The notes below the pieces were generated by a model. That model searched no databases. It was given only the letters and a program-made list of their open reading frames with translations, and was not told the DNA's origin. From positions 1-64,000 of the forward strand of contig CAMVDX010000014.1 of the NCBI GenBank assembly GCA_947166355.1: a DNA stretch of 64,000 nucleotides, given 5' to 3'. The position numbers and the translations under genes are program-made. Below, piece after piece: positions 11,501 to 58,487 of the stretch (its first letter is position 1; each line of letters starts with the position of its first letter). Source of the DNA: an uncultured Treponema sp. (lineage in GTDB: Bacteria; Spirochaetota; Spirochaetia; Treponematales; Treponemataceae).

Positions 11501-14500
11501 AACGGTCTTGAAACTATATATCTAACTAACGGTCGTAAGGATTTGATTAGAGTTACGCAGAAAGATACCGTTACTGGAATCGTGCATGAAACAAGAATTG
11601 AATACGACAGAAGACATCTGCCGCTAAGAGTTTTCGAGGGAAACGGAGAGAATGAAAAACTTGTTTCTTCATATTTATATACTGCTGAAGGAAAGCTCCG
11701 TGCAGAAATCCTTCATGGCAGTGAAAACTGGATAAGACTTTATGAATACAGAAATAATCAGATATGTGAAGTGAAGCAGTTTAAGGTTTCAATTGGCGGG
11801 CTCGCGCAGGCAAACTCGGTCGGGGCGCATGGTGACCTATTTGAGTCTATCGAAAACACTGGTTCACCAATTGATGAAAATCGTCTGAGAACCTTGCTGA
11901 CAGCAGCGGAAGAAAATGTCTTTGTTCAGGAATATGGATATCAGATCTCTGGCGGAAACAGAAAACTCGTGACCGTAACCGACGGGCTTGGAGTTCAGAA
12001 TCTTTTTGAATATGACAGTAATGGAAATCTTATAAAGACTACGGACGGAAATGGTACTGTAAGGCAGAGAAATTACACAAGGGCCGGCCGTCTTTTTGCA
12101 GAACAGAGTTCTCACGGCGGCTGGTACGAATACGGCTATACTGACGGCTCCCTGAGCAGTGCCAGAGAACAGGGCGGTGCGGCTATCCGTGCTGAATACT
12201 ATCCGGATGGAAGCCTTAAGAGCGAGACAGACCGCTACGGTAAAACGACTTACTATCATTACGACAGTCGCAGCCGTGTAGTAAGTGTACAGAGTGAAGC
12301 TCAGAAAATCTGGTATGAATATGATGATTTTGACAGGGTGGTAAGGAGTGTCGTGGGGAACTCGGCAGATGAAGCTGTAAGCGTTTATTACGAGACTCAT
12401 GAATATTCATCTGATGGAAGAAAGGTAACCGTCAGTGAAGGCGGCAAATACAAGACAGTTTATGAGCTTGATGCCTTCGGAAATGTTGTTAAACAGATTG
12501 ATGGAAATACTAACGAACGTTCGTATGTATATGATATGCAGAACGGTCTTATTGCAGAATATGACGGTTATGGAGAAAAGACTTCTTATGAATACAACGC
12601 GCTTGGACTGGTGAGCAAGGTAACACTGCCGGATGGAACAGAAACAAAATATGAATACAATTATATGGGACTTCTTTCAAAAGTTACGGATGACTGCGGG
12701 ACAGTTTATGAAGCTTTATATGATAAGGCTGGCCGCCTTATAAAGGAGCGTAATCGTGCTGACTCAGAGAAATCCTATGAATATGACAGGGCAGGGCGGG
12801 TTACCAAAGTTCTCTGCGGTGGTGAAGTTGTAGAATCATATACTTACGGTGCTGATAGCCGAACAATAACCGTAAAGGACGGTAACGGTAATGATTACCT
12901 TTATAACTACGACGCCTTCGGTCGCCTGATAAGCGAAAGAAACCGCAGTAGTCTTGAACAGAATTATTCTTACGATGAAGAAGGTCAGCTTAACTACAGA
13001 AACAGCTTTGATGGCGGAACTACAACAATATCTTATTCATCAGACAGAACTGTAAGGACTGTCCGATATTCCGACGGTTCAGAAAACCGATTCGTCTACG
13101 ACATGATTGGTAACATTACAGAATCACAGAACGCTTACGGTAGAACGCAGTACCACTATGACCAGGGTGGCCACATGGTTTACCAGAAAGACGTAACGAC
13201 AGGTGAAGAAATCTATTTTACTTACGATGATGCCGGTAACAGAATAAGACTCGAAAGCTCTAACCGCCAGACTTCATACACCTATGGTAAAAACAACGAG
13301 GTAAAAGAAATTTTTGACAACAGGCAGAGAATCAGTATAAAATTAGAGTATGATAAAGTCGGAAGGGAAGCATTGAGAAAGTTTGGTAACGGCACATCAG
13401 AACAGACTCTATATGATAAAGCAGGACGTGTAACTGTTAAGACTCAGAAAAACAGCCGCGGTGAACTGCTGTGGGGTGAGGGCTATGTGTACGGCAGTGA
13501 CGGTAAACGGAGTGCAACGGTTGATAACCTCGGCCGGATTACTTTCTACGAATACAACAGTAAAGGTCAGCTCAGTGCAGTTTTCTATCCTTATACCGAT
13601 GAGATGATTAGGAATCTGAAGTCGGAAGCTGAAACGAACGGACTTTCTACAACAGCTGAAGCAGGCGAGAACCGTTTTATTACTAGCACAGAAAGAGCAG
13701 AACTAGTTCCGCTTCTAAACTCCATGCAGTACGGACTTGCCTATAATCTTACAAACTTACAGGTTTTCATAAAAGAAAGTTATGCCTACGACAGAAACGG
13801 CAACCGCACAACAAAAACTACCCCTTACGGAAAAATTGAATACACTTACGACAGGGAAAACTGCCTGCTTTCAAGCGGCTCTAAAGGTCAGACTTTCATA
13901 AACTATACTTATGACGCAATGGGAAATCTCCTCACAGAAGAAAGTGCAAATAAAACAGTAAAATACGCCTATAACGCTCAGAACCGCCTGATTTACTGCG
14001 AAGTAACAGACAGAGCAAATAAGGAATATGCCCAGACAACCTATGCCTACGATGCATTCGGCAGACGTATTATTGTACAGGACAGGGGAGAAGCCGCAAT
14101 CCGTACCCTTTACGATGGACTAACCTTTGACATCATTAAGCAGGGACCGACCTTCGCAAACGGCCAGTTCACAGATTCAGGCAGCGGCATAAAGTTCAGC
14201 AGCACCGGCCGCCCGACCGGAGACCGCTACCGCTACTTAGGCGACGAAGACAAAAAAGACGGCAGCCGCTACTTCTATCTGGACGAGGGAACTTACAAAA
14301 ATGTAAGCACTCGTTACCGCGGCGAACGCACAACAATAAACGTAAACGGAACACTAGCTGCCCAGACCACAACCGAAGGAACAGATTACTTTTCAACCGA
14401 CTTACTCGGAAGTATCCGTTCAACAACCGATGTCTACGGCGCACAGAAATCAAACTACACCTACGACGCTTTCGGCACTCTAATTCAGGGCAGTCTAAAC

Positions 14501-15304
14501 GGCACCACAGACCACGGCTACCTGGGCAAACAGTACGAATCAACAAGCCGGCTATACAACTACGGCTACCGCGACTACAAACCGCAGACTGCTAGATTCA
14601 CTACTCTCGACCCAATCCGCGATGGCGCCAATTGGTTCATCTATTGCAATAGCGACCCGGTAAACTTCATTGATTTACTTGGATTATGTGAGGCAAATGA
14701 TAGAGAAAACAATTTCTTACTGAAAGAAAATGAAAGATATACAAATAACATATATGAATATTATATACCTGAGGGTAATGGCAATAGACCTGGAGAAAAA
14801 CGTACTGAGACAAAAGGTGTTGTAATTCATTTTACAGAGGTAACTAGACAGGATCCTAAAAAAACAATAGATGCTTGGATAAAAGATGGAGAGAAAAAGA
14901 AACCAAAGTATGGTAGTGCTCAATATGTAATAGCTACAAATGGTAATATATATGCAGCTATCCCAGAGGATGAAGTTGCATATCATGCTGGTGGAAGTCC
15001 TGAAAATCCACTACGTTCTGAAATGAAAAACAAACTAGGTAATCCAAATAGAACTACAATAGGTATCGAGTTAGAAAATAATTATGATAGTGGAGGCTTT
15101 ACAAGTGAAACTGAAAATGCCGCGATTCAATTAACAGCAGAAATAATGCTAAAAAATGGTTTGGACCCCCAAAAAGACTTGTATAGACATAATGATCTAA
15201 CTGGAAAAAATTGTCCAAAATATTATGTTGATAATCCTGGAGAATGGGAACAATTTAAGTATAAAGTCGAACAAGAAATGGAAAGACTTGGAGGTGTAAA
15301 ATAA
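8582..15304 (+). CDS. RHS-repeat polymorphic toxin with C-terminal peptidoglycan amidase domain
   Basis: A 2240-residue exported RHS protein. Order: Sec signal peptide (1-24); Gly/Asn/Ser-rich linker; charged coiled coil (~95-220); a DUF6531-like entry module (GDPVRLTTGSY, ~222-275) interrupted by a Ser/Thr-rich insert (~375-470); many YD repeats (~640-1900); the RHS core (YRYLGDEDKKDGSRYFY through RFTTLDPIRDG, ending IDLLGL at ~2035); then a 205-residue tip. The tip matches Amidase_2 (N-acetylmuramoyl-L-alanine amidase): VVIHFTEV supplies the first zinc His (~2081), YRHNDLTGKNCP the second His and Cys (~2200), and IGIELEN is the conserved strand. Base composition becomes clearly more AT-rich at the tip, as expected for a swappable toxin cassette. 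SD GAGGAGG lies before ATG 8582. Secretion by the adjacent T2SS is inferred. Confidence 0.93.
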   Translation: MKKNIKKMIFIIGCFFLISSGLSAFYYGPDGQHSSGGGKEKPSESSPSSESESQTNDNTGGKSEKQGNENGGTNTNPDGGQSNTGGTSGGGGNEKNKDGADEEKKKEEEEAARRAREEAERKAREEREHMEAIKNALQEAEKKALDEENRLQELEAEIAKAEERLKNADDGNMYPAASRAMKQTMDSLKRQQEEKRKKYDEIQKECEKLNKEIKEKENSKTGGDPVRLTTGSYEQNESDIIISGVQPFEVKRKYDSENKIISSFGYGWVTNLDQRIILGTSASIQNEYEELLVNLSQAKEIRDSLELDIKSSYRISSIENGETEILQRKNRLLEIGAAAHELALQRGENIEINIPVFETETETDETSETQFSDGTVSVAPASGSAAGSDSGKVSTSGSDLNSDSGSNSTSGSASTSSSSSVVSSSSSSSSSSSTSSQSGSSMTGNPENSPGSSTGFSGFSEGVTSASSDGNQSVPEIEPLPNILEGVITEEELNALIERLRLKSENLSVTAEQISAEAYRRAEELDGIIESFREDVSFLNQIQSEYEAMKHEVDAFYAAEFAPSAGRHNRNSRALFTGMESGYEETGLDTITLIDENEYPHLLYETGEGSRIWRNDSEKNIVNVTVADDGYLVSLRDGTVKAFDEAGFIIRLTDRNENTIGISRNPDEKINYIETSFGEKYRFEYNGRFISKITNERSLDESVSYGYSGNSLVSVKDTDGDTVTMTYDSEDRMTALNKCDGSSVRFEYGEQTADGLVLTTATVNEEGYAEHFEYDRSGMRTVYIDHDGNRTCYWYDGRHRTVREEQPDGTVIINEYDDFDNLIRMNENGNVTSFSYDGSGNKTAASYSDGSYESWSYDDFGLVISYTDRDGVREEYVRDGKGNITAYRRGGKTVYEQTADSKGQVTSRTVYGEKAVTVNYVYDRYGNVVRKECGGVLTEYQYDGRNRLVKEKQAGKVLSEYQYEGNKTVRKDYNGLETIYLTNGRKDLIRVTQKDTVTGIVHETRIEYDRRHLPLRVFEGNGENEKLVSSYLYTAEGKLRAEILHGSENWIRLYEYRNNQICEVKQFKVSIGGLAQANSVGAHGDLFESIENTGSPIDENRLRTLLTAAEENVFVQEYGYQISGGNRKLVTVTDGLGVQNLFEYDSNGNLIKTTDGNGTVRQRNYTRAGRLFAEQSSHGGWYEYGYTDGSLSSAREQGGAAIRAEYYPDGSLKSETDRYGKTTYYHYDSRSRVVSVQSEAQKIWYEYDDFDRVVRSVVGNSADEAVSVYYETHEYSSDGRKVTVSEGGKYKTVYELDAFGNVVKQIDGNTNERSYVYDMQNGLIAEYDGYGEKTSYEYNALGLVSKVTLPDGTETKYEYNYMGLLSKVTDDCGTVYEALYDKAGRLIKERNRADSEKSYEYDRAGRVTKVLCGGEVVESYTYGADSRTITVKDGNGNDYLYNYDAFGRLISERNRSSLEQNYSYDEEGQLNYRNSFDGGTTTISYSSDRTVRTVRYSDGSENRFVYDMIGNITESQNAYGRTQYHYDQGGHMVYQKDVTTGEEIYFTYDDAGNRIRLESSNRQTSYTYGKNNEVKEIFDNRQRISIKLEYDKVGREALRKFGNGTSEQTLYDKAGRVTVKTQKNSRGELLWGEGYVYGSDGKRSATVDNLGRITFYEYNSKGQLSAVFYPYTDEMIRNLKSEAETNGLSTTAEAGENRFITSTERAELVPLLNSMQYGLAYNLTNLQVFIKESYAYDRNGNRTTKTTPYGKIEYTYDRENCLLSSGSKGQTFINYTYDAMGNLLTEESANKTVKYAYNAQNRLIYCEVTDRANKEYAQTTYAYDAFGRRIIVQDRGEAAIRTLYDGLTFDIIKQGPTFANGQFTDSGSGIKFSSTGRPTGDRYRYLGDEDKKDGSRYFYLDEGTYKNVSTRYRGERTTINVNGTLAAQTTTEGTDYFSTDLLGSIRSTTDVYGAQKSNYTYDAFGTLIQGSLNGTTDHGYLGKQYESTSRLYNYGYRDYKPQTARFTTLDPIRDGANWFIYCNSDPVNFIDLLGLCEANDRENNFLLKENERYTNNIYEYYIPEGNGNRPGEKRTETKGVVIHFTEVTRQDPKKTIDAWIKDGEKKKPKYGSAQYVIATNGNIYAAIPEDEVAYHAGGSPENPLRSEMKNKLGNPNRTTIGIELENNYDSGGFTSETENAAIQLTAEIMLKNGLDPQKDLYRHNDLTGKNCPKYYVDNPGEWEQFKYKVEQEMERLGGVK

Positions 15305-15898
15305 ATGAAAAAAAATATTAATATTTGTCTAATTTTTTTGATTACAGTATTTGTTTATGGACAGAAATCAATGTTTGATAAATTAACTATTATAGGAGAA
15401 CATGAGGACCTTCATAGCATAATAAATATTGGAAATTCAATAATTGAGACATTAGTTAAAAATGATTATGAACTTCTTTCTCATTATTGTTTTGAAGAAA
15501 TTCGTTTTTCTCAAGCTTTAGGGTTTTCCATTGAAACCGATACAAGCATAAATAAGAAATACATATCAGTTGCAGGAAAATCAAATAAAAAATTTCCATT
15601 TTATTTTTTTCAGCCAGATAAGTTTATTGATTATGAATTAAAAGATATTCTTGAATCCTATAAACCAAATTCTGAAAAATTAGAGGCTGTTGTAATTAAT
15701 GGTTTGATAAAGAATAAAGAAGTTGAGAAAAAATATTTATCTGATTTAGCAAAAATTTTTGGAGAATGTGTTTCACTAGAATATTATTCAGGTCCATCTG
15801 ATTTACAGATAGATTGGGAGTGTACAATTTTAATATTGAAAAAGGTTGGACTAACATATAGACTTGTTGGAATTTCACAAGATTACTGGCAACCATAA
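15305..15898 (+). CDS. Putative periplasmic immunity protein for the RHS amidase toxin
   Basis: No family recognised. The 197-residue product begins with a Sec signal (MKKNINICLIFLITVFVYG, cleavage near Gly/Gln), so it would act in the periplasm, where a peptidoglycan amidase would do damage. It follows the toxin stop with no gap (TAA then ATG), and its GGAGGTG Shine-Dalgarno lies inside the last toxin codons, so the two are translationally coupled. Its AT-rich composition matches the toxin tip and not the RHS body. These features fit a toxin-immunity pair; immunity itself is an inference. No lipobox or membrane helix beyond the signal is visible. Confidence 0.75.
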   Translation: MKKNINICLIFLITVFVYGQKSMFDKLTIIGEHEDLHSIINIGNSIIETLVKNDYELLSHYCFEEIRFSQALGFSIETDTSINKKYISVAGKSNKKFPFYFFQPDKFIDYELKDILESYKPNSEKLEAVVINGLIKNKEVEKKYLSDLAKIFGECVSLEYYSGPSDLQIDWECTILILKKVGLTYRLVGISQDYWQP

Positions 15899-16026: not shown

Positions 16027-16238
16027 AAGCTCCGGGCAGAAATTCTCCACGGAACTGAGACCTGGATCCGACTCTATGAATACAGAAATAATCAGATTTC
16101 AGAACTCAAACAATTCAAGGTAAATTCGGTGGTTGAGGTCCTTGAAACCACCGCAGATCTCATCGACGAAACAAGATTGCAACCCCTTCTGCACACTGCC
16201 GTCTCAAATGTCTACACTGAGAACACATTTCTACAAAC
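16027..16238 (+). pseudogene. RHS gene remnant
   Basis: One frame reads KLRAEILHGTETWIRLYEY and continues with NNQISELKQFKV, nearly identical to residues around 1040-1070 of the intact RHS protein (KLRAEILHGSENW, NNQICEVKQFKV). Homology continues through DETRLQPLLHTAVSNV. A short piece resembling the GGTGGTTGAG...CCACC repeat family lies inside it (16124-16147). There is no start codon and the frame leaves the homology where the Rpn remnant begins. It is probably the scar of a second RHS copy or displaced tip. Confidence 0.85.
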
Positions 16239-16511
16239 GAGCCCGGAGAAGATGATTTTTCAAGGCGTCTTTCCAGACTTGTAGCGGATTATAAAGAAGA
16301 CGAATAATACAGGAGTGATTATTTAGTAATGAATTTACATGACCATGACATTAGATACGAAGCTCTTGCCGAAGGTGCCAGACAGAAAGCCGTGGAAGCT
16401 GCAAAAGCTTTTCTTGCAGACGGAAAGTATACACCGGAAAGAATTGCAGAACTTCTTAATATCCCTGTAGAAGCCTTTATGGAAAAGGCTCCGCATAGAC
16501 AAGGAAAATAG
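16233..16511 (+). pseudogene. Rpn / PD-(D/E)XK nuclease-family transposase remnant (C-terminal part)
   Basis: Reading in one frame from 16233 gives TNEPGEDDFSRRLSRLV, a TAA stop near 16305, then YRSDYLVMNLHDHDI and on to ERIAELLNIPVEAF. This aligns continuously with the C-terminal third of the intact Rpn-family gene at 23305-24126. The ORF track lists only the last 60 residues (16329-16511) as an ORF. The internal stop and missing N-terminal nuclease part mark it as a pseudogene. It abuts the RHS remnant without a gap. Confidence 0.85.
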
Positions 16512-16642: not shown

Positions 16643-18913
16643 TTATTTGAGCTTAAATCCAAAGAAGAATGAAGGATGTACACTTTTATCATCACCCTTG
16701 ATTGTCCATTTGTGGCGTGTGAGTTCAAATGCACGGTCATTTTCGCCGTGATTCTGAATATCAAATGACATACCGGCGTTCAGTTCAATGAATCTTCCAG
16801 GGAAGAGGGTAACTGTAGTTCGGAATGATGGTATACCATATTTTGAGCCTTCATAGTTTTCTTTATTCTCTATTGCTTTGTCTAAATCATTTTCATAAAG
16901 AACGAACTTATAAAGCCATTCAAAATCAAGATAGATAAAGCCGAATCGGAATTCTGTTCCGATGCCGCCGTAAGGAATCCAAAGTTCGTTTTTTTCATCC
17001 TTAAACATTTTAGAGGCGTCATAAGTCAGACCAAGTGTTACAAAGAAATTTCTGGTTCCGCTCTGATAATAAGTATCAAACATATTATCTGTATTCCAGC
17101 TGAAGCCAACGTGATGCATTCCGTTTTTAATAAAGTTGAATACACCAATTGCAATTCCATCACTTTCTTCTGCAATGTTTATAACGCCAATCTGAGCGCC
17201 TTTTACTTTGCGTGCACAGTTGAAAAGTCCTGTAATCTGGGCACCATCTACATCTTCTGCAACATTAAAAAGTCCGCTTACCTGAGCACCGTTCACATCT
17301 TCTGCAACATTAAAGAGTCCACTCACCTGAGTACCATTTAAATTATTTGCTGTATTAAAGAGACCTGTATATTGCCCGCCGTTTACAGTTCCGCCTGCAA
17401 TATTAAAGAGACCAGAAGCCTGCAAACCGTAAACGCTGCCTTCTGCAATATTCATCAGTGAAGATGCCTGAATAATTCTTATATTTTTGTCATATGCTCC
17501 AAAAATACCGAGAGACGTAAGTGAATAATCTTTGCCACCGTTAACAATGTTTACGCCAGGGAAAACAGAAAAGTGGAAGTAACTCATTACGGCCGGATTA
17601 AATTCAGATATTGAAATATCATCTTCGTCTTCTTCTTCGTCATCATCTAAAAGTGGAGGAAGTTCAATTTCGTTATCATTTTCAATTCCTTCTGATGATT
17701 CAGAATCTGCATCTTCTAAAGTTTCATGGCGGCGACGTGAACCAGTTACAGCAGGTTCTTCTTCTGCAGTAGTTGTAAGCCCATCCAAAGAAAGGATTTC
17801 ATCATCTTCTGAGATATCTTCATCAGAACCGCCACGAAGACGATTTTCTTTTCTCTTGATTGTTGAAAGAGTATTCTGGTCGAGTACGTAAATCTGATCC
17901 TTGTTCAAAAGGAAGTAGCCCTGTTTAGTAGAATATTCATCAATTATAACTGCCGAATACTGGCCTGCCGGAAGAGCCATAAAAATAGGCTGTCCTTCAA
18001 CCTTGTTGATTTCGGAAATCAGTTTGCCTTCTGCATTGCGGATGATAAACTTTCCTTTTGCTTCCTTTGAAAGTGAAAGCATTGCTTCGGCAGTTGAGAT
18101 GTCGGAAAGGATGAGGTCTCCAGAACCCACCAGCGTAATATTATAATTAGGATGCTGAGGTCCAGCCTTACTTGATTCAGTTTTAGAAAGAGTATCGTTG
18201 AAGGCATACGAATAGAGCTCGTTTAATGTAACCTTGTTGTCGCCCGAAGCATCAGCTGCTCCGCGGAGCCCTGTAATCATTGCGTTAGTAAAATAAGATG
18301 ATTCAATTTCATCTGATTCCTGAGAATATTCGTTGTCTGAGCTCGAAGAAAGATATGCGTGACCTGTAACAACCGAAGAGTCATCGAGCAGGAACGGCTT
18401 GCGCTTTTGACCTCCCTTAGTGCGGATAAAGTTTCCTGAATAACATGAGTCCAGAATTACAACGTGAATGTCGCTTGGGACCTCGGTAATTGCGGCCTTG
18501 AGCGAAGAGTAATCATAAGGAACGTCGCCGAGAAGAAGAGAGGTTTCATCTGAGTGACCCGAATAGTAAAAAATGAACTCGGAACGTTTAGCATGAGTTT
18601 CGCTGTTTTTAATTTTATCAGTAATCTGATTAAGAGTTTCGTCAATCTTTTCTTTTGTCGGGTCTATGAGAACAAAACTGTTTGAGTCGTTTACACCACC
18701 GATTTCTGACATAGCCTTCTGGAAATTCTGAGCATCACTGCCTGCATATAAAAGCTTTTCACGGCCTTTTCCGCCTTTGTTAGATCCAATGTAAATAGCG
18801 TAGCGGTCAACTCCGCTTGTGTTTTCTTCTGCCTGATTTGCAGAATTACTTGTTGCGGCAAAAAGCTGTACAAAGCTAAAAAGTATTAATGTCGTAATAA
18901 TTATCTTTTTCAT
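16643..18913 (-). CDS. Exported caspase-like (C14) protein with LA_2272-type surface repeats
   Basis: A 756-residue secreted protein. After a Sec signal (~1-20) comes a caspase/metacaspase domain: YAIYIGSNKG, the catalytic His in YYSGHSD (His-120) and the catalytic Cys in LDSCYSGNF (Cys-157). A Ca-binding EF-hand-like loop DASGDNKVTLNEL follows near residue 240. A PEGA-like beta region (~280-355) precedes an acidic low-complexity linker (~360-440). The last ~300 residues hold about seven ~20-residue GLFNVAEDVNGAQVS-type repeats, typical of LA_2272 surface-repeat proteins, and then beta-rich segments that look like an outer-membrane domain. AGGG lies 9 bases before ATG. It is third in an operon with an ECF sigma factor and an anti-sigma-like protein. 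The substrate is unknown. A caspase coupled to a surface-repeat domain is unusual. Confidence 0.88.
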   Translation of the reverse strand: MKKIIITTLILFSFVQLFAATSNSANQAEENTSGVDRYAIYIGSNKGGKGREKLLYAGSDAQNFQKAMSEIGGVNDSNSFVLIDPTKEKIDETLNQITDKIKNSETHAKRSEFIFYYSGHSDETSLLLGDVPYDYSSLKAAITEVPSDIHVVILDSCYSGNFIRTKGGQKRKPFLLDDSSVVTGHAYLSSSSDNEYSQESDEIESSYFTNAMITGLRGAADASGDNKVTLNELYSYAFNDTLSKTESSKAGPQHPNYNITLVGSGDLILSDISTAEAMLSLSKEAKGKFIIRNAEGKLISEINKVEGQPIFMALPAGQYSAVIIDEYSTKQGYFLLNKDQIYVLDQNTLSTIKRKENRLRGGSDEDISEDDEILSLDGLTTTAEEEPAVTGSRRRHETLEDADSESSEGIENDNEIELPPLLDDDEEEDEDDISISEFNPAVMSYFHFSVFPGVNIVNGGKDYSLTSLGIFGAYDKNIRIIQASSLMNIAEGSVYGLQASGLFNIAGGTVNGGQYTGLFNTANNLNGTQVSGLFNVAEDVNGAQVSGLFNVAEDVDGAQITGLFNCARKVKGAQIGVINIAEESDGIAIGVFNFIKNGMHHVGFSWNTDNMFDTYYQSGTRNFFVTLGLTYDASKMFKDEKNELWIPYGGIGTEFRFGFIYLDFEWLYKFVLYENDLDKAIENKENYEGSKYGIPSFRTTVTLFPGRFIELNAGMSFDIQNHGENDRAFELTRHKWTIKGDDKSVHPSFFFGFKLK

Positions 18914-18940
18914 ATCGCTATCCCTGATTATTTCTTTCCG

Positions 18941-19765
18941 TTATTTTTCGAGAGTAAAAGTTACACCTTCCGTCTTTTTTGGTAAATACGAAAGCTCTGT
19001 AAGATATTCTATATCAGTTTTATTTTGAATTTTATTTTCAATATCTTCCAGTGTGAACTGATTTTTTGAAGTTACCATAATAAAACATTCAAAATCCGGT
19101 GCGTTATCCAGCTCGTAAGAAAAGTCGAGCGGAGTTTCATCACTACGATGAATGAGTTGAGCAGCTTCCCAGCCAGTTTCAGGGAAATGTCGTGTAATAT
19201 TACCGTTTCCGTCTACACTGAAAATAATTCCGTATTCATCTGAACCGGCATTATAAGTAATTTGAATTACATCTCCTGGTTTTGCAAAATCTCCGTTGTT
19301 AAGAGCCTGAATTTCGCGGCCTTTCTGGCGGTAAAGGTTGATTGCTGGTGTAGAAGCATCAGATGCTACAATATTTCCTTTTACACGTTCTGTAGGAGCA
19401 GAGTGGCTTGAAAGCTTAGAGTTTTTAAGCCCTGCCGGAATCAGTATTGCAGCTAAAAGAACGGCTGCGGCAGCATAAGATAAAATTCGGGTTGCAGGGA
19501 AATGTAAAATATTTGATTTTTCTTTGAAAGTAACTGAAGTTGCCGGGCTGGCAGAGTTTGTTGAATTAATTGAATTACGAGCGAGCTTACCTGCAACGGC
19601 TGCTCTCATAGCCTGTACGGAATATTTGCTAAGAATATCCTCATCAGATTTTTTAAGATTATCTAATTCGGCTTCTATGTTTTCTTTTCCATAAAGTGAG
19701 TAGAAATTTTTTGCATCAAGTTCAGAGTTTTTAATTTCCTCTAAAATTCTAGTTGGAATGGCCAT
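18941..19765 (-). CDS. Membrane anti-sigma-factor-like protein with DUF4384-like sensor
   Basis: A 274-residue bitopic protein: a charged N-terminal cytoplasmic region (~1-90), one membrane helix (ILSYAAAAVLLAAILIPAGL, ~93-112) and a periplasmic domain. The outer part (GDVIQITYNAGSDEYGIIF, then VDGNGNITRHFPE) resembles DUF4384-type domains often found with bacterial caspases. Position, one base after the sigma gene stop, and topology suggest it sequesters the sigma factor and releases it on an envelope signal. This is inferred because no zinc-binding anti-sigma HxxxCxxC motif is seen. It may instead present a ligand to the downstream caspase. Confidence 0.75.
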   Translation of the reverse strand: MAIPTRILEEIKNSELDAKNFYSLYGKENIEAELDNLKKSDEDILSKYSVQAMRAAVAGKLARNSINSTNSASPATSVTFKEKSNILHFPATRILSYAAAAVLLAAILIPAGLKNSKLSSHSAPTERVKGNIVASDASTPAINLYRQKGREIQALNNGDFAKPGDVIQITYNAGSDEYGIIFSVDGNGNITRHFPETGWEAAQLIHRSDETPLDFSYELDNAPDFECFIMVTSKNQFTLEDIENKIQNKTDIEYLTELSYLPKKTEGVTFTLEK

Positions 19766-19766
19766 A

Positions 19767-20255
19767 TTACATCATGCCTCCTGCATATTCCTTAAGTTTT
19801 TCCAGACGTTTTCTAATTCCGGAAACAGACATTTTCATTTTTTTGGATGTTTCTTCAAGAGTGTAGCCGTCAACATAATGTAAAATTGCAATCTGTCGGT
19901 CTTTGGTGTCACGTTCTGAAAAAATGCAATCCAGAAGAATCGAAGTTTCAATTTTCTCTGTTCCTTCTGAACTTGCACTGTCTTCAACAATTTCTGCAAT
20001 TACATCAAATTCAGGTCCATTACGCAGTTTGTCAGAACGAATTTTATTCAGACAGATATTTGTTGCCATAGTGTACAGAAGGCTTGAACAAACGTTAGTA
20101 ATTTTTTCCTTCCGTTCAATAAGGCGAACAAAAACATCCTGCATGGCATCAAGAGCCTTTTCTTCATTCTTAAGAAGAAAGCGGCATCGTCTGAGTACCA
20201 TAGGACCAAACTGGCGGTATAGATTATCAAAATCATCCATCGACAAAGTTTTCAT
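19767..20255 (-). CDS. ECF-family RNA polymerase sigma factor
   Basis: A 162-residue alternative sigma factor with only regions 2 and 4, the hallmark of ECF sigmas. Region 2 has NLYRQFGPMVLRRCRFLL and the -10-recognising DAMQDVFVRLIER. Region 4 ends in a helix-turn-helix, DGYTLEETSKKMKMSVSGIRKRL. It is the first gene of a three-gene minus-strand unit (sigma, anti-sigma-like, caspase), so it probably controls at least this unit. Upstream, AGGA lies ~11 bases from ATG. A bipartite ECF promoter could not be assigned with confidence. Confidence 0.9.
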   Translation of the reverse strand: MKTLSMDDFDNLYRQFGPMVLRRCRFLLKNEEKALDAMQDVFVRLIERKEKITNVCSSLLYTMATNICLNKIRSDKLRNGPEFDVIAEIVEDSASSEGTEKIETSILLDCIFSERDTKDRQIAILHYVDGYTLEETSKKMKMSVSGIRKRLEKLKEYAGGMM

Positions 20256-20317
20256 TGTACAATTATTCCTGTCATTAAGTTTAACAGATGAGAATGGGAA
20301 AAGTGTTACAAGCCTAT

Positions 20318-20404: not shown

Positions 20405-21253
20405 TTAATAATTATTCAGCGTAAGTCCTGTATATGTCTTAGCGTATTCATCGCCTGCGCTGCGTATAACTTTCTCCATCTCTTCTGTAAGATGTTTAGC
20501 GGCAATTGTATCAGAAAGATTTTTATAGTTTTCTATATGAATTACCGGCAGCATTTTTATATCATACAGATATTTTTCTAGGTGATTATAAGACCAGAGC
20601 GGATCGTATTTTCCAAGACCATATTTATCGCTTCCGCCAATGAATAATGGCTGAACATCACAACCGCAGTATAATGCAATTCTGGCCGCTCCCTTTTTGT
20701 AATTATTGCGACCAATACGAGGTGAACGTGTTCCTTCTGGAAATACAATTACATTACAGCCCTTATCAATGAGTTTTTTACATTCAACAAGTACATCATT
20801 AAAATCTGTTGTATTTGTAATATAGGCCTGTTTAATTACACCACGGAGCGGAGTATGTGTAAGGCTTCCGCGAACAATACAGGTTGAATTAGGCACAAGA
20901 GACATAATGTAAACAAAATCCAGCAGAGAAGGATGGTTTGCTATTATGACTTTGCTGTGAATATTTCTGAAGGCCTGTTTATCTTCGACTTTAAGAATTG
21001 AAGATCTGCAAATATGAAGGTTTTTTAAAAAAACTCTGAAAGTATGAGAAACATAGGCGCGGGCAATTATGCCGAAATCCTTTTTATGAAGAGTAAAGAG
21101 TCTGATAAATGGAAATACAAAAATCGCAAGAAAGACTGCACCAAGTCCAAAAAATAGAATTGCGCCTATCTTAGAAATGCAACAATAAATATAAATAAAA
21201 ATGTTTTTAATTTTTGGCTGCTTGCTTTTGTAACTAATCTCACTCTTACTCAT
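20405..21253 (-). CDS. 1-acyl-sn-glycerol-3-phosphate acyltransferase-like protein (PlsC family)
   Basis: Membrane-associated acyltransferase that transfers an acyl chain onto a lysophospholipid or related acceptor. After a hydrophobic N-terminal segment (~25-55) the LPLAT motifs are present: NHPSLLD (HX4D catalytic box), the RGSLTHTPLRGV region, and VFPEGTRSPRI. It is the last gene of a minus-strand trio (methyltransferase, ketosynthase-like, acyltransferase) that looks like one arm of an aryl-polyene-type locus. It starts 24 bases after the ketosynthase-like gene ends. In polyene clusters such enzymes attach the polyene acyl chain to a lipid anchor; that specific role is inferred. Confidence 0.85.
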   Translation of the reverse strand: MSKSEISYKSKQPKIKNIFIYIYCCISKIGAILFFGLGAVFLAIFVFPFIRLFTLHKKDFGIIARAYVSHTFRVFLKNLHICRSSILKVEDKQAFRNIHSKVIIANHPSLLDFVYIMSLVPNSTCIVRGSLTHTPLRGVIKQAYITNTTDFNDVLVECKKLIDKGCNVIVFPEGTRSPRIGRNNYKKGAARIALYCGCDVQPLFIGGSDKYGLGKYDPLWSYNHLEKYLYDIKMLPVIHIENYKNLSDTIAAKHLTEEMEKVIRSAGDEYAKTYTGLTLNNY

Positions 21254-21277
21254 AAGACTCTAATTAAACACTTCAGA

Positions 21278-21955
21278 CTATTTCAACAAAAAATGAAGAA
21301 ACTCAACAGGGGATTTTCCGACATCCGAAAAATCATCCAGACAAACACTATTATCTTTTTTATCCGTACTTACAACACAGGCATAAGCCAGCGGAATATT
21401 TTCTTGAGGTCGCTTGTCTCCATAAACTTCGGGAACAAGCTCATCGGCATAAACCAGAATGATTTCTTTTTCAGTTCCGGCAAGCACTGGGGCTACAGCT
21501 GCCTTAAAAGCCTCTGAAAAATCATTGTTTGAAGGATATAAGACAGAATAACCGCCTTTTAAGCCGAATGCAAGAGTAGCAGAAGAAACTGGCGTATTAA
21601 AAACAGAAAGAGAAAAACCTGCCGGTAAAATCATTCCGTCTTCAATAATACCCTTATTTATAGTAAATTCGCGTTCAATTTCGCCGCGCAGTGAAATAAA
21701 CACAAGCTTAGTTTCTTTGGAAATATTTGTTTTTTCCAGAAGACTATGTATTACATGCACCGTCATCTTTGTAATCTGCGAAAGACGGCGGCGGAAAAGC
21801 GGGTCAGTATATTCCAGCTTTGGAGATTCTTTAATCTGTTCTATCTGAGCATCACCAGAGAGCCAGCTTTGCCATAACTGTTCGTCATCTGCAAGGCCGG
21901 GAGCCCATTTAGAAATGCCAGAAATATAAATTTCCTTCATAGTATCCATTGTCAT
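21278..21955 (-). CDS. Beta-ketoacyl synthase-like chain-length factor (aryl-polyene ApeC type)
   Basis: A 225-residue ketosynthase-fold protein matching the short beta-ketoacyl synthase-like family found in aryl-polyene clusters, where ApeC pairs with the ketosynthase ApeO as chain-length factor. Seen: ISGISKWAPG at the N-terminus, DPLFRRRLSQITKM, the LRGEIEREF region and PVSSATLAFGLKGGYS at the usual active-site turn. The turn has Ser in place of a catalytic Cys, so it is probably non-condensing. The first ATG (21955) lies in a dispersed repeat (GGAATGACA); ATG 21940 (MKEIYISG) may be the true start. No partner ketosynthase occurs in the window. Confidence 0.8.
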   Translation of the reverse strand: MTMDTMKEIYISGISKWAPGLADDEQLWQSWLSGDAQIEQIKESPKLEYTDPLFRRRLSQITKMTVHVIHSLLEKTNISKETKLVFISLRGEIEREFTINKGIIEDGMILPAGFSLSVFNTPVSSATLAFGLKGGYSVLYPSNNDFSEAFKAAVAPVLAGTEKEIILVYADELVPEVYGDKRPQENIPLAYACVVSTDKKDNSVCLDDFSDVGKSPVEFLHFLLK

Positions 21956-22016
21956 TCCAAATTTGTTTCGGAATCTCTATTACTAGATGCTGAAACAGTT
22001 CAGCATGACAGTATTT
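21952..22016. repeat. Dispersed palindromic repeat, family B (GTCATGCTGAAC... type)
   Basis: Contains GATGCTGAAACAGTTCAGCATGACA with the inverted TGTCATTCCAAATTTGTTTCGG at the other end, the same paired arms as at 34088, 49393, 52455 and 62578. It lies between the methyltransferase and ketosynthase-like genes and supplies the first possible start codon of the latter. Confidence 0.85.
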
Positions 22017-23135
22017 TTAGGCTTTCTTGAAACACAAGAGAGAATAAGCATTACTTCCCAGATTATGATGAGCACAATCAAGTTTAAAGCCTGCTTCTTC
22101 AATTGCGTCTACCAGTTCCTGATAGCGGTACATCTTGCTGTTTCCGTTTGCAATACAGGTAAAATAAAGTGAAGTTCCCATCAAAGAATAAGAGCTTGCT
22201 TCAAACTTCTGCTTGTCCCAGAGAGGCTCCAGAACCCAAACGTTAGTATCAGGAGTTGCAGCCTCGTGAACCTTCTTTAAAATCTTAGTAATCTGGTGCA
22301 GGCTAAAGCAGTCAAGGAACTGACTCATCCATACAGCATCAGGGTTGGCCGGGAGCTTTGTTGATTCTTCAAGTACGTTACCCATAGAAAAATCTACGCG
22401 GTCTGCAAAGCCTGCTTCAGCAGCATTTTTCTTTGCAACATTAGCCTGACCCGGCAAATCACAGATAGTCATTTTAACATCAGGATCGTAGCGGCAGCAG
22501 GTTAAAGACCACTTACCAGTGTTTCCACCAATGTCCAGAATATGTTTTGGTTTTTTAGCAAACACAATAGGAAGAGCTTCCGGGAATGCAATATCAGAAT
22601 AAAAATGGTCAAATTCAAACCAGGATTTTTTAGGCTGATCCGGCAAAGTAGAAAGAGCTTCGTAAACAGTAACCCATTTATCACCAAAAACCTTAAGTCC
22701 TTCTGGCTTACCGTTTTTAATTGACTTTTCGAGATCCCACGCACCTTCATAACAGATGTCGTTTGTAAACCAGAAGTTTACGCGGGTTAAATCATCCTCC
22801 AGAAGCATCCAGCCGATTTTACCGAGCTTATATTTTTCACTCTTCGGGTCAGATTCAGAATCTTCTGTAAGCTTAATAACGTTCATTCCAAGGGCCATTT
22901 CACAAAGAACGCCTACTCCATATTCAGAAAGGCCAGTTTTTTCAGCAAGTGCGGCGCGGGTAATACCATCATCACCAGCGTCTTCAATAGCCTTCATAAT
23001 GCCAAGGTTAAGCATTGTCTTAATTGCCTGAAAAGCCAGAGGGGCAAAAGCAATTTTCTGTGCTTCAAATTTTGCGTCTACAGCGCGCAAATCATCTTTC
23101 TTGTATTTTTCAATATCAAAATAAGCTTTATCCAT
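22017..23135 (-). CDS. SAM-dependent methyltransferase (O-methyltransferase family)
   Basis: A 372-residue class I methyltransferase with the layout of small-molecule O-methyltransferases. The N-terminal part is helical and contains a winged-helix dimerisation region (DDGITRAALAEKTGLSEYG, ~57-75). The SAM-binding motif I HILDIGGNTGKW lies near residue 195, then MTICDLPGQ (motif II) and PDAVWMSQFLDCFS. Methyltransferases acting on the aryl head group occur in aryl-polyene clusters, and this gene starts the minus arm of the locus, so that is the likely role (inference). A TATACT -10 box lies 9 bases before ATG with no Shine-Dalgarno. Confidence 0.85.
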   Translation of the reverse strand: MDKAYFDIEKYKKDDLRAVDAKFEAQKIAFAPLAFQAIKTMLNLGIMKAIEDAGDDGITRAALAEKTGLSEYGVGVLCEMALGMNVIKLTEDSESDPKSEKYKLGKIGWMLLEDDLTRVNFWFTNDICYEGAWDLEKSIKNGKPEGLKVFGDKWVTVYEALSTLPDQPKKSWFEFDHFYSDIAFPEALPIVFAKKPKHILDIGGNTGKWSLTCCRYDPDVKMTICDLPGQANVAKKNAAEAGFADRVDFSMGNVLEESTKLPANPDAVWMSQFLDCFSLHQITKILKKVHEAATPDTNVWVLEPLWDKQKFEASSYSLMGTSLYFTCIANGNSKMYRYQELVDAIEEAGFKLDCAHHNLGSNAYSLLCFKKA

Positions 23136-23144
23136 AGCGTTTAA

Positions 23145-23171
23145 AGTATACTATATTAATGGATTTTTCAA
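23145..23171 (-). promoter_or_regulatory. Weak promoter of the methyltransferase arm, leaderless geometry
   Basis: On the minus strand TTGAAA and TATACT are separated by 15 bases, shorter than ideal, and TATACT ends 9 bases before the ATG. No Shine-Dalgarno is visible between them. Confidence 0.4.
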
Positions 23172-23220
23172 GGAGTGCGGAATCCCGCCCTACTCCTCAA
23201 CCACCTGCGGTGTTTTCGGC

Positions 23221-23300
23221 TACCCCACCCAGCGGGGGCAAAACACCCCGACATCGAGCCCCCGCAACGCCCAGTTTAAGGCATACAGATTAGCATTTGT
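23221..23300 (-). repeat. Inverted repeat flanking the Rpn block, left copy (family G)
   Basis: The reverse complement reads ACAAATGCTAATCTGTATGC, then GGGCGTTGCGGGGG, ATGTCGG, TTTTGCCCCCGC and GGGGTAGC. It matches the right copy at 25213-25298 block by block, in opposite orientation. The first 20 bases match at 18 positions. Confidence 0.85.
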
Positions 23301-23304
23301 AGGA

Positions 23305-24126
23305 CTAGCAGATACTTCCTTGTACTGTAATCTTTTCGGCAAACGATTCTACAGGAATATTAAGAAGTTCAGCTATTCTTTCCGGAGTATACTTTCCATC
23401 TGCAAGAAGAGCTTTTGCGTCTTCTACGGCTTTCTGCTGTTCGCCTTCTCTCTTTGCGATGCGTATAATGTCCTGGTCATGTAAATTCATAGCGGCGTAA
23501 TCACTCCTGAATTCTTCATTCTCTTTAATCTTTGCAACAAGACTGGAAAGACGTTTTGAAAAATCATCTTCCCCGGGTTCATTGGTGTTTATGAAGTGAA
23601 GGAAAGCCCGGATTTTTTCATCCGTTTCCTTTTCATAAGCACTTGAATTATAAATCACTTTGAGAGAATTGTCATTCAAATTTACCTTACTGTTTTCTTC
23701 GCAGATGTTTCTGAAGGTGTAGCACGGTAAGCCGTAATAGTTTTCATTTTCGTCCATAAAAGGGTCATCCTTACAGATGAAAAGTATGTAGCTGTCTTTC
23801 AGCTGAACATAATCCTGTCCTTTCATAAGGCTGTCCATATTCAGCATGGATTCATAATAACGAATCCGTTTTCCGAGGGCTTCCATAGGGTAAGACTGGA
23901 TTTCAATATCAATGACTTTGTCTGAATCTTTGATATAAACATCAAGCCGGACTCCTTTGCTTGTATAATAGGGAGCGATTATTTTTTCGAGTTCGGGATA
24001 CTCAACATGATTTACCTTGATATGAAGCAGCCGTTCTACGAGTTCGGTACAGACTTCCGGGTCTTGCAGGACTTTCTGAAACATCCAGTCATCACTGAAA
24101 GTGAGTTCATCAAATAATTTTGGCAT
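23305..24126 (-). CDS. Rpn family recombination-promoting nuclease / putative transposase (PD-(D/E)XK)
   Basis: A 273-residue protein of the Rpn/PD-(D/E)XK nuclease transposase family. The N-terminal half has the family opening (LTFSDDWMFQKVLQDPEV) and the catalytic core GVRLDVYIKDSDKVIDIEIQ, with Asp, Glu and Gln in the D...ExQ arrangement. The C-terminal tail ends in YTPERIAELLNIPVESF, an HTH-like segment shared with the remnant at 16233. The track starts at GTG 24138, but GGAGG sits 5 bases before ATG 24126, so that start is used. Rpn nucleases cut DNA and stimulate RecA-independent recombination, and they occur in many diverging copies. It lies directly inside the left inverted repeat. 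Confidence 0.88.
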   Translation of the reverse strand: MPKLFDELTFSDDWMFQKVLQDPEVCTELVERLLHIKVNHVEYPELEKIIAPYYTSKGVRLDVYIKDSDKVIDIEIQSYPMEALGKRIRYYESMLNMDSLMKGQDYVQLKDSYILFICKDDPFMDENENYYGLPCYTFRNICEENSKVNLNDNSLKVIYNSSAYEKETDEKIRAFLHFINTNEPGEDDFSKRLSSLVAKIKENEEFRSDYAAMNLHDQDIIRIAKREGEQQKAVEDAKALLADGKYTPERIAELLNIPVESFAEKITVQGSIC

Positions 24127-24253
24127 AAAAACCTCCACATATAATAAATGCCAAAAAATTCGATTTCAGACAAAAATTCAGTAAAAAAGTGAAAAAAAAG
24201 TTAAATTGTTTGGAAATAAGCAGAAATTGCCTGTACAATTAAACTATAATTAA

Positions 24254-24421
24254 GTTGGAAAAGGACAGAAGCCTGCTTGGAGCATCAAAAAAGGAATAAC
24301 GTCACTAAATAATCCTCATTATCAATTTATAGATAATGAGGGAAATGTTATATGGGATCCTTATTATGAAGTTCCAGTAGAAATGACTCAAACAGAGATT
24401 CTTAAAGTTTATACTTTTTAG
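24254..24421 (+). pseudogene. Probable toxin-tail (RHS/CDI tip) remnant
   Basis: An open frame of 55 codons without a start runs from 24254 to the TAG at 24419 (GQKPAWSIKKGIT, then SLNNPHYQFIDNEG, ending ILKVYTF). It is immediately followed by an exported small protein whose SD GAGGTG directly follows the stop. That is exactly how the RHS tip and its putative immunity gene are arranged at 15.3 kb. The family is not recognised. It may be the end of a displaced polymorphic-toxin cassette; low certainty. Confidence 0.5.
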
Positions 24422-24432
24422 AGGTGAATTAA

Positions 24433-25143
24433 ATGAAGAAAGTTACTTTTCTTATTATTTTATTAAATGTTTCGCTTCTTTTTGGATATGACTTACGCGG
24501 GTATTGGGGGTTGAATGTTTTAACTCCGGAAAATATGAAATATAAACATGAGAATGTTTCTTGGGGGATAAGTAAAACTTATGAAACAGAAGATGGTTTT
24601 TTGATTGATATCAACGATAAAGACTGTTTTTTAAGGTTTAAAAGATGGGGAAAAATTCCCATCGATGAAATAATTGAATCTGATAATTCAATCATTATTC
24701 GGTTTAATTGGAAAGAGAAATCTTCATATATAGAATTTAGCATTATAACTGAATACGAAATGTATATAAAATCAATGAACACAACTTTTGGCATTCCAAA
24801 TGGATTAAATAACAGATTCTTTAAGCTTGAAGGTCCTGAGAATTCTATATCATATCCTGTCATGGGAAAAATCCTTAATAAACAGAATCTAACATGGTGC
24901 GGTTCGTATCTTGGAATATTACCGGAAAACTTATTAGTTACAATTATTTATATTTCTAATACTTCGAGAATATCAGACATATCTGATAAAAAGCAGTTAA
25001 TTATTCGGGTTAATGAAAATGAATTAATCGATTTTTCTGATGAATATTACAAAAAATTCAAATTAGAAAGAAAGAATACATATGTTTATGGTGAAATCAA
25101 GTTATCTGATATTATAATTGAAAACAATTTCGAAATATATTAG
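24433..25143 (+). CDS. Exported protein, putative orphan immunity protein
   Basis: A 236-residue protein with a Sec signal (MKKVTFLIILLNVSLLFG, cleavage before YDLRG). The rest is AT-rich in codon use, predominantly beta, with no motif recognised. GAGGTG lies 6 bases before ATG. It follows a toxin-tail-like remnant and shares with the gene at 15305 a signal peptide, similar size and AT-rich composition, so it may be an orphan immunity gene kept after loss of its toxin. That is inference from arrangement. Confidence 0.65.
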   Translation: MKKVTFLIILLNVSLLFGYDLRGYWGLNVLTPENMKYKHENVSWGISKTYETEDGFLIDINDKDCFLRFKRWGKIPIDEIIESDNSIIIRFNWKEKSSYIEFSIITEYEMYIKSMNTTFGIPNGLNNRFFKLEGPENSISYPVMGKILNKQNLTWCGSYLGILPENLLVTIIYISNTSRISDISDKKQLIIRVNENELIDFSDEYYKKFKLERKNTYVYGEIKLSDIIIENNFEIY

Positions 25144-25212
25144 AGATTGTTTTTTATAACTAACTATTAGAAAGTTCTTAAAGTACATTATTTGAGTAAC
25201 AACCTATATCCC

Positions 25213-25298
25213 ACAAATGATAATTTGTATGCTCACTGATTGGGGCGTTGCGGGGGTGGCGCAATGTCGGAGGATTTTGCCCCCGCAGAGGGGGTAGC
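25213..25298 (+). repeat. Inverted repeat flanking the Rpn block, right copy (family G)
   Basis: Begins ACAAATGATAATTTGTATGC, then GGGGCGTTGCGGGGG, AATGTCGG, TTTTGCCCCCGC and GGGGTAGC. It is the inverted partner of 23221-23300. Together they enclose the Rpn gene, the toxin-tail remnant and the putative immunity gene. Confidence 0.85.
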
Positions 25299-25404
25299 GG
25301 ACAAGACCGGAACGAACGAAGTGAGCGAGGACTTGGGAGCGAGGGGGAGACTTCCCCCATCCTATGTATTTTTTTTTCTGAAAAAACAACAAAATCTGTT
25401 CATA

Positions 25405-25433
25405 TTGCTTTTTTTATTCTTATTTAATAAAAT
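25405..25433 (+). promoter_or_regulatory. Sigma-70-type promoter of the acyl-carrier-protein operon
   Basis: TTGCTT and TAAAAT are separated by exactly 17 bases. The start codon lies ~40 bases downstream, preceded by AGGGAAAG, so the transcript would have a normal leader. Confidence 0.65.
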
Positions 25434-25474
25434 AGTACGAATAATAAAATAAATGTTATCATTAGGGAAAGAAT

Positions 25475-25732
25475 ATGGAACAGTTGAAAAACGAGATAAA
25501 GGAAGTTATTATCTCATCGCTCCAGCTCGAAGATATTAAGCCGGAAAATATTGTAGATTCTGAGCCGCTTTTCGGTGAAGGTCTCGGACTTGATTCTATT
25601 GATGCTCTTGAGCTTGGAGTAGCACTTAAAAAGAAGTTCGGTGTTAAATTTTCTGCAGAGAGCGGAGAAAATAAGAAGCACTTTGCTTCTGTAAATGCAC
25701 TGGCTGATTATATTACAGCTCAGAAAGCTTAA
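25475..25732 (+). CDS. Acyl carrier protein (first of two)
   Basis: An 85-residue acyl carrier protein. The phosphopantetheine attachment motif is LGLDSIDALELG with Ser near residue 40, flanked by the acidic helix II of the family. AGGGAAAG lies ~5 bases before ATG. It opens a plus-strand operon of aryl-polyene type, where two ACPs (ApeE and ApeF in the described systems) carry the growing polyene chain. Which of the two this gene corresponds to cannot be decided from sequence alone. Confidence 0.92.
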   Translation: MEQLKNEIKEVIISSLQLEDIKPENIVDSEPLFGEGLGLDSIDALELGVALKKKFGVKFSAESGENKKHFASVNALADYITAQKA

Positions 25733-25763
25733 GTAATTAAACAAATTTTAGAAGGAGATTTGT

Positions 25764-26015
25764 ATGTCTAAAGATGAAATTTTTGACAAGCTTAAAGGTA
25801 TTTTGGTTTCAGAATTCGAGCTTGACGAAGGTGATGTAACTCCTGATGCACTTCTTGGAGATGATTTGGATTTGGATTCTATCGATTCTATTGACCTTAT
25901 CGTAAAAATGAAGGAATTTATGCCTGCTGATAAGGGAAATGTTGATCCATCAATTTTCAAGACTGTAAAGACTGTTCAGGATGTAGTTGATGCCCTTGTT
26001 CCATACATGGCATAA
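25764..26015 (+). CDS. Acyl carrier protein (second of two)
   Basis: An 83-residue acyl carrier protein with the attachment motif LDLDSIDSIDLIVKM (Ser near residue 38) in an acidic context. GAAGGAGA is 8 bases before ATG. It is clearly diverged from the upstream ACP and lies 31 bases after it, matching the paired ACPs of aryl-polyene clusters. The following ligase starts 16 bases downstream. Confidence 0.92.
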   Translation: MSKDEIFDKLKGILVSEFELDEGDVTPDALLGDDLDLDSIDSIDLIVKMKEFMPADKGNVDPSIFKTVKTVQDVVDALVPYMA

Positions 26016-58182: not shown

Positions 58183-58487
58183 ATTGTCGGGTCAAGCCCA
58201 ATAATGACTCTTATGTCATTGTCCGGTTTAACCAGACAATCTATTCATTATTATAACACATGAAAGAAGAAAAGGTGTCACTTTAAATTACAAAATGGAT
58301 TGCTTCGCCTTCGGCTCGCAATGACGTGGCAGGATTACTTTGCATTTTATGCTTGCAATGACGTAGGAAGATTGCGTAACTGAACTTGCAATGACGTAGG
58401 AAGGTTGCTACATACTTTGTGCTCGCAATGACGTAGCAGGAATTCGTCATTGCGAGGAGCGAATGCGACGAAGCAATCCATATACTG
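58183..58487. repeat. Cluster of family A repeats
   Basis: At least four or five successive GTCATTGCGAG / GCAATGACG pieces (58190, 58310, 58360, 58400, 58447) in a 300-base gap with no gene. This is one of the densest tracts of this family in the window. Confidence 0.9.

Follow-up and report, generated by a model that had tools for sequence, protein, structure and literature searches.

What does an exported caspase-like protease do in the same operon as a sigma factor and a predicted membrane inhibitor? This question is raised by a 64,000-nucleotide stretch of DNA from an uncultured Treponema sp. (GenBank assembly GCA_947166355.1, contig CAMVDX010000014.1, positions 1 to 64,000), hereafter called the window. 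Between positions 16643 and 20255, its minus strand encodes, in order of transcription, an extracytoplasmic function (ECF) sigma factor, a bitopic anti-sigma factor, and a caspase-fold protease. The source genome (G000; 3.25 Mb in 65 contigs, 89% complete) has strains of the rumen spirochaete Treponema bryantii as its nearest named relatives. To our knowledge, the physiological roles of most bacterial caspase homologs have not been established, and envelope stress signaling in spirochaetes is poorly described. We consider it probable that the operon encodes an ECF sigma circuit that serves the cell envelope and is gated by proteolysis. The chances seem about even for a more specific, Spirochaetota-wide version, in which an outer-membrane-tethered caspase would serve as the periplasmic first protease of anti-sigma proteolysis, would act on one R-x-K-G sequence (cut between Lys and Gly) that is found both in the anti-sigma factor and in the activation loop of the caspase itself, and would relay outer-membrane state or TonB demand to transcription.

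The three genes are tightly packed, and all features of the operon lie on the minus strand. The sigma factor gene (19767-20255; 162 amino acids) is separated by 1 nucleotide from the anti-sigma gene (18941-19765; 274 amino acids), and the protease gene (16643-18913; 756 amino acids) follows after 27 nucleotides. Curated models identify the first product as a sigma factor (TIGR02937, 65.6 bits against a cut-off of 42.9; the Pfam model Sigma70_r2 above its cut-off with an E-value of 4.9e-9, and r4_2 just under its own), and the presence of sigma2 and sigma4 regions with no sigma3 region makes it an ECF protein. The second product is predicted to be a membrane anti-sigma factor from family homology, a single transmembrane segment, and a gene adjoining that of the sigma factor. 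Among 53 homologs, the model NF052375 ("anti-sigma factor") is matched by 19 (best E-value 1.6e-10), PRK13920 by 10, and zf-HC2 by two. The window's own copy matches no anti-sigma model, and neither FecR nor the RseA family is matched by any of the 53 members.

The anti-sigma factor can be divided into a cytoplasmic helical N-terminal domain (residues 5-66; 19568-19753), delimited by AlphaFold helices and by the anti-sigma matches of homologs, a transmembrane segment at about residues 94-112 (19430-19486; hydropathy maximum 2.18 at residue 94), and a DUF4384-like periplasmic beta domain (residues 138-274; 18944-19354). The DUF4384 match of the window copy (E-value 0.002) is under the Pfam cut-off, 19 of the 53 homologs match at 0.01 or better, and a fold search with the model of the protein returned weak beta-sandwich matches only. 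A first-pass annotation, made from the letters alone, had placed here an ECF sigma factor, a bitopic protein whose outer part resembles DUF4384, and an exported caspase-like protease, and its description of all three agrees with the curated models, the transmembrane segment, and the fold comparison given below.

Synteny in relatives, which that annotation had named as a check on its proposal, is strict. The order sigma, anti-sigma, caspase on one strand is kept in 136 of 136 complete loci across Spirochaetota, a number that pools partly overlapping sets seeded with the anti-sigma factor and with the caspase, and that includes near-identical genomes. Nine more loci are incomplete: eight lie near the end of a contig, and one (L064, in genome G370) is broken within its contig. 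This last locus is a degraded copy whose caspase is truncated before the catalytic Cys, whose anti-sigma motif reads GVKG, and in which no sigma gene was found. Searches with the anti-sigma factor located it in 12 of 39 genomes of a near-relative set (the source genome included) and in 60 of 392 genomes, representing 39 of 166 genera, of a phylum-wide sample. An independent search with the caspase domain yielded 80 loci in which the sigma and anti-sigma genes precede the caspase wherever the contig permits. The caspase alignment search found 356 relatives, and all of the 80 that were listed are spirochaetal.

Some searches were less informative. Scanning genome contigs with the single anti-sigma protein gave no match, probably because the patterns were too specific, and counts of the PF00656 family were not used to judge presence because that search fails to detect the operon caspase in its own genome. 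Two loci with weak DUF4384 matches (L108 and L109) were rejected as family members. The pairwise distance matrices of the three families correlate (r 0.84-0.88), as expected for co-inherited genes. Overall, it is well supported, at the level of sequence, that many spirochaetes have a trio of sigma factor, putative membrane inhibitor, and exported caspase-like protease in one operon.

The protease matches Peptidase_C14 (PF00656; E-value 2e-10), and its caspase domain superposes on Arabidopsis metacaspase 4 with a Z score of 19.9 over 207 residues. AlphaFold lays the protein out as a signal-peptide-like helix (residues 1-20; 18854-18913; MKKIIITTLILFSFVQLFAA), the caspase domain (residues 35-265; 18119-18811) with His120, Cys157, and an EF-hand-like loop at residues 221-232, a beta domain (residues 268-352), a disordered linker (residues 353-472), and a strand-rich C-terminal domain (residues 480-756; 16646-17476), predicted to be a probable outer-membrane barrel, which holds LA_2272 repeats (NF047436, 35.5 bits against a cut-off of 25). 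From this model, the C-terminal beta domain probably anchors the exported protease in the outer membrane and leaves its catalytic domain in the periplasm. In a distant member (L099), a CsgG/LpoB-like domain follows the caspase, and the C-terminal module looks exchangeable.

The catalytic residues are conserved throughout the family. The His and Cys dyad is present in 143 of 144 readable caspase proteins, the sole exception being the broken locus L064, and His120, Cys157, and Asp155, which lies two residues before the Cys, are invariant in 47 diverse members. In TbMCA2 and MALT1, the pocket for a basic P1 residue is formed by the equivalents of two Asp residues of this protein, Asp155 and Asp60 (the S1 Asp being Asp211 in TbMCA2 and Asp462 in MALT1) (PMC4357240). 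By our own reading of the D-x-C motif, Asp155 would sit at this S1 position, and the residue of metacaspase 4 that aligns with Asp60 is the Asp of its helix 1. Because the two residues match the acidic pocket of basic-P1 enzymes, the protease is expected to cleave after Lys or Arg. The EF-hand-like loop is likewise conserved, with D221 and E232 invariant in caspase alignments A2 and A4 (the latter being that of 47 members). Many metacaspases depend on Ca2+, and the loop would be compatible with such a dependence here. Thus, the intact His/Cys pair, the EF-hand-like loop, and the LA_2272 repeats that had been noted at first reading are all present, and the active site that was to be checked in homologs is retained outside a single broken locus.

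Caspases are typically cut between their subunits, in the region after the catalytic Cys. At this place, 7 residues after the Cys and in a loop predicted by AlphaFold to be disordered (residues 164-180), the protease carries an R-x-K-G motif (R164-T-K166-G167; 18413-18424), which we propose as a self-processing site. The K-G pair occurs there in 143 of the 144 readable caspases, again with L064 as the sole exception, and the full R-x-K-G in 133; K-G is also invariant in the 47-member alignment, and is found at the equivalent position in 0 of 23 other spirochaete caspases. The anti-sigma factor has the same motif (R127-V-K129-G130; 19376-19387) in its disordered linker (residues 67-134), on the periplasmic side of the membrane, and the proposed cut lies after K129. 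R-x-K-G is present in 109 of 121 non-redundant linkers, compared with an expectation of 2.5 and a maximum of 7 in shuffled linkers, and K-G in 117 of the 121. The spacers on either side of the motif are variable, K129 is among only 7 invariant columns in 53 anti-sigma sequences, and both copies of the motif fall in regions with a predicted local distance difference test (pLDDT) score below 50. An economical reading is that the same protease would cut itself and the anti-sigma factor at one common sequence.

Further basic-Gly motifs can be seen in and near the operon. In many members, an R-x-R-G motif (R358-L-R360-G361 in the window; 17831-17842) opens the long linker of the caspase. At three other loci (L175, L179, and L180), a conserved lipoprotein-like gene between those for a TonB-dependent receptor (TBDR) and ExbB encodes a basic-Gly stretch (SRSRGEG, VTRVRGEG, and TFVRGEG), and its product is possibly a further caspase substrate.

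The likely targets of the sigma factor can be approached through its promoter. At 82 of 132 loci (0.1 in shuffled sequences), the sigma gene is preceded, at a distance of about 27 nucleotides, by an ECF-type motif, GTRACA-N17-TGTY, whose spacing is fixed. In the window, the copy GTAACA-N17-TGTTAAA (20280-20309, minus strand) lies 24 nucleotides before the sigma start codon. The conserved -35 and -10 elements of this predicted promoter suggest that the sigma factor autoregulates its own operon. Among the 110 loci where sequence extends 4.5 kb downstream, a TBDR gene lies 3' of the caspase in 38 and exbB in 36, with ExbD and TonB accompanying it in those that were read. Copies of the motif precede 28 of the 38 linked receptors and 16 of the 36 exbB genes. 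When a limit of 110 nucleotides is applied, the motif precedes 68 of 133 sigma genes, 28 of 40 TBDR genes, and 11 of 38 exbB genes, compared with a background of 12 of 1296 other open reading frames, all of these motif counts being dependent on mechanical choices of reading frame and start. One locus (L024) was left out of the TBDR counts, its 708-amino-acid protein being unrelated, and its ExbB/ExbD neighbors were not counted as linkage.

The motif is also found away from the operon. Unlinked TBDR genes carry it in 5 of 6 sigma-bearing genomes tested, including that of the window, where the receptor gene at G000:C12:15740 is followed by genes for ExbB, ExbD, ExbD, and TonB; the receptor gene of G021, a genome in which the operon was not found, has no motif. 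A genus-wide scan gave 30 matches, compared with 2 for the reversed pattern, mostly ahead of genes for exported or envelope proteins. Genes 3' of these matches encode the sigma factor, the receptor, ExbB, and FlgO-like, beta-barrel-like, DUF4097-like, M16-type protease, and FGE-type lipoprotein products, although several of these names are our own reading of the sequence, and a LolD-like ABC gene has a looser match in four genomes. A second copy within the window (58252-58281, minus strand), found in 5 of 5 genomes of the T. bryantii-like clade that were searched (the source genome included), precedes the gene for an exported FlgO-like protein of 193 amino acids (57583-58164, minus strand; PF17680, E-value 3.2e-4, just under cut-off), a predicted regulon member. 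Control of an envelope and TonB regulon by the sigma factor is a well-supported prediction.

The sigma promoter of the TBDR gene has an additional peculiarity. It is embedded in a long hairpin, in which the spacer between the -35 and -10 elements pairs with the Shine-Dalgarno and ATG region. Compensatory changes are found in 11 of 19 pairs, and 83% of cells are paired, compared with 40-51% when the alignment is slid. The hairpin occurs at G000:C12 (L272, about 940-990) and at the TBDR promoters of L018, L058-L061, L132-L154, and L240-L242. An RNA started by the sigma factor would miss the 5' arm of the hairpin, and a read-through RNA would mask the start site.

What the sequences show (three genes in constant order, intact catalytic residues, homology to anti-sigma factors, a motif common to two of the products, a promoter, and a predicted regulon) might be joined as follows. 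The bitopic anti-sigma factor would hold the sigma factor at the inner membrane. An envelope signal, most plausibly the state of the outer membrane or of barrel assembly, or else substrate and Ca2+ sensed by the protease itself, would activate the protease, and this activation probably includes self-cleavage between K166 and G167 of the R-x-K-G motif, in the loop after the active Cys. The active caspase would then cut the anti-sigma factor between K129 and G130 of its own R-x-K-G, on the periplasmic side and close to the inner membrane. Release of the sigma factor would be completed by a site-2 (M50) protease together with cytoplasmic proteases, and the freed factor would transcribe its own operon, the TBDR gene with those for ExbB, ExbD, and TonB, and genes for other exported or outer-membrane proteins. 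Of the two alternatives offered by the first-pass annotation, the envelope-signaling one is thus favored by the shared motif and by the sigma promoter on the operon and on TonB and envelope genes; for the topology, the cleavage of the anti-sigma factor, the triggering signal, and the completion by M50, we infer the steps.

Several points weigh against this circuit. No M50 protease was found in the window's own genome, which is 89% complete, although one is present in 4 of 5 genomes tested; a TIGR00054 match in the window's genome proved to be a DegP-like protein and not RseP. The alignments behind the AlphaFold models were shallow. That for the protease, on which the membrane-tethered periplasmic topology depends, comprised 11 sequences (mean pLDDT of the model 69), and for the C-terminal domain of this protein the fold searches returned nothing separate, nor was its putative barrel matched to a known one. 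Covariation between the motifs of protease and anti-sigma factor is anecdotal, with one matching departure (L102, where both read L-L-K-G) and mismatches in the others. In addition, R-x-K-G could serve the anti-sigma factor in docking, in peptidoglycan binding, or structurally, and the caspase could be one of the regulon's products instead of its trigger.

This last possibility defines the alternative that survives best, although we consider it rather unlikely. The sigma and anti-sigma factors would sense the envelope alone, through the DUF4384-like domain and some other site-1 protease, and the caspase would merely be an operon output, such as a surface or periplasmic protease that processes outer-membrane proteins. 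Its place as third gene in an operon whose sigma promoter suggests autoregulation would fit such a role, as would the mostly exported or outer-membrane nature of the predicted regulon, and the genome encodes a DegP-like protease that could in principle cut the anti-sigma factor. However, at each of the 136 complete loci the caspase is accompanied by the anti-sigma factor, whereas ordinary regulon outputs such as the TBDR and ExbB come and go. The two proteins also have the R-x-K-G motif in common, at the places where self-processing of the one and cleavage of the other as a substrate would be expected.

A system of surface signaling for TonB-dependent uptake, resembling FecI-FecR-FecA, is less probable still. 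Here the linked receptor would receive the signal and the caspase would modulate the response, as might be suggested by the TBDR and exbB genes downstream of the operon at about a third of the 110 loci, many with sigma promoters. However, the receptor tested matches the Plug domain only (Pfam), with no N-terminal signaling domain detected, FecR is unmatched throughout the anti-sigma family, no receptor gene lies beside the window's operon, and the trio is kept without a receptor being found in genomes G015, G262, G313, and G006. The other alternative of the first-pass annotation, a programmed-death module in which the sigma factor would be the trigger and the caspase, once active, would kill or lyse the cell, is very improbable, with nothing in its support beyond the caspase fold and the discussion of bacterial caspase homologs in cell death (PMC7475262, among others), given that the enzyme bears a signal-peptide-like segment, the predicted regulon comprises envelope and uptake genes, synteny with an anti-sigma factor is conserved, and the operon has no toxin gene.

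The surroundings of the operon also deserve description. Upstream, positions 20405-26015 encode an acyltransferase, a beta-ketoacyl synthase N-domain, a methyltransferase, and acyl carrier proteins; the cluster resembles the aryl-polyene or fatty-acid type, and several of its genes also adjoin the operon in L014-L016. A full-length PDDEXK_2 protein is encoded at 23305-24138. On the other side, a large exported protein with Rhs repeats and, at its C-terminus, an N-acetylmuramoyl-L-alanine amidase domain (8582-15304) is followed directly by a small exported orphan (15305-15898) with no Pfam match, possibly an immunity protein for the Rhs protein. Between this locus and the operon, positions 16100-16510 hold broken fragments like the Rhs protein and a PD-(D/E)XK transposase-family protein.

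The first-pass annotation knew of no described system of this exact composition, and in the open-access literature we likewise found no published combination of a caspase with an ECF sigma factor, an anti-sigma factor, and DUF4384 in spirochaetes. The preferred model, that of a proteolysis-gated circuit, nevertheless shares parts with several known systems. A spirochaete pair of sigma factor and FecR-like protein, LIC_12757-LIC_12756, is described in Leptospira (PMC12155086), in a paper that mentions no caspase. As in FecI-FecR-FecA, an ECF sigma factor is paired with a bitopic regulator, and a TBDR and ExbBD/TonB are under sigma control (here predicted), but there is no FecR domain, no receptor signaling extension was detected, and a caspase is added. 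The ECF54 group, which is found near CHAT proteases and without an anti-sigma factor (PMC8999054), is another case of ECF sigma factors associated with peptidases, unlike the present one in lacking that inhibitor. The metacaspases and orthocaspases (C14B), such as MaOC1 (PMC7935541), share with the protease the fold, the His-Cys dyad, acidic residues at the S1 site (putative here) from which a basic P1 is predicted, an Arg/Lys-containing loop after the Cys, and a Ca2+-type loop, whereas the present enzyme is exported, fused to LA_2272 repeats and a beta domain, and genetically tied to an ECF sigma factor. The SigmaE-RseA-DegS/RseP system resembles the proposed circuit in its bitopic anti-sigma factor, its periplasmic and then intramembrane cuts (proposed here), and its envelope regulon. 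DegS, however, is a trypsin-fold PDZ protease, while the proposed first protease here is a caspase homolog with its own membrane-directed C-terminal domain, and the outer domain of the anti-sigma factor is DUF4384-like.

The closest parallel in mechanism is Craspase, the type III-E CRISPR system of Csx29 (TPR-CHAT), Csx30, and CASP-sigma, in which a caspase-clan protease cleaves the inhibitor of an ECF sigma factor (PMC10028731). As in the Treponema operon, the inhibitor and the sigma factor are encoded at the same locus, and a motif for the sigma factor lies in its own locus. However, Craspase is cytoplasmic and RNA-guided, and its CHAT/TPR protease is bound to Cas7-11, whereas here an exported C14 protease is paired with a membrane anti-sigma factor and an envelope regulon; the protease has no TPR or CHAT match, and no Cas gene is among the operon neighbors scanned with Pfam. 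The spirochaete locus gives a caspase homolog a specific candidate role as a periplasmic signaling protease, with predicted cuts at K166 and K129, catalysis by H120 and C157, a GTRACA-N17-TGTY promoter, and a predicted regulon. If this role is correct, the control of sigma factors by caspase-clan proteases would extend from CRISPR immunity, as in Craspase, to envelope homeostasis across a phylum.

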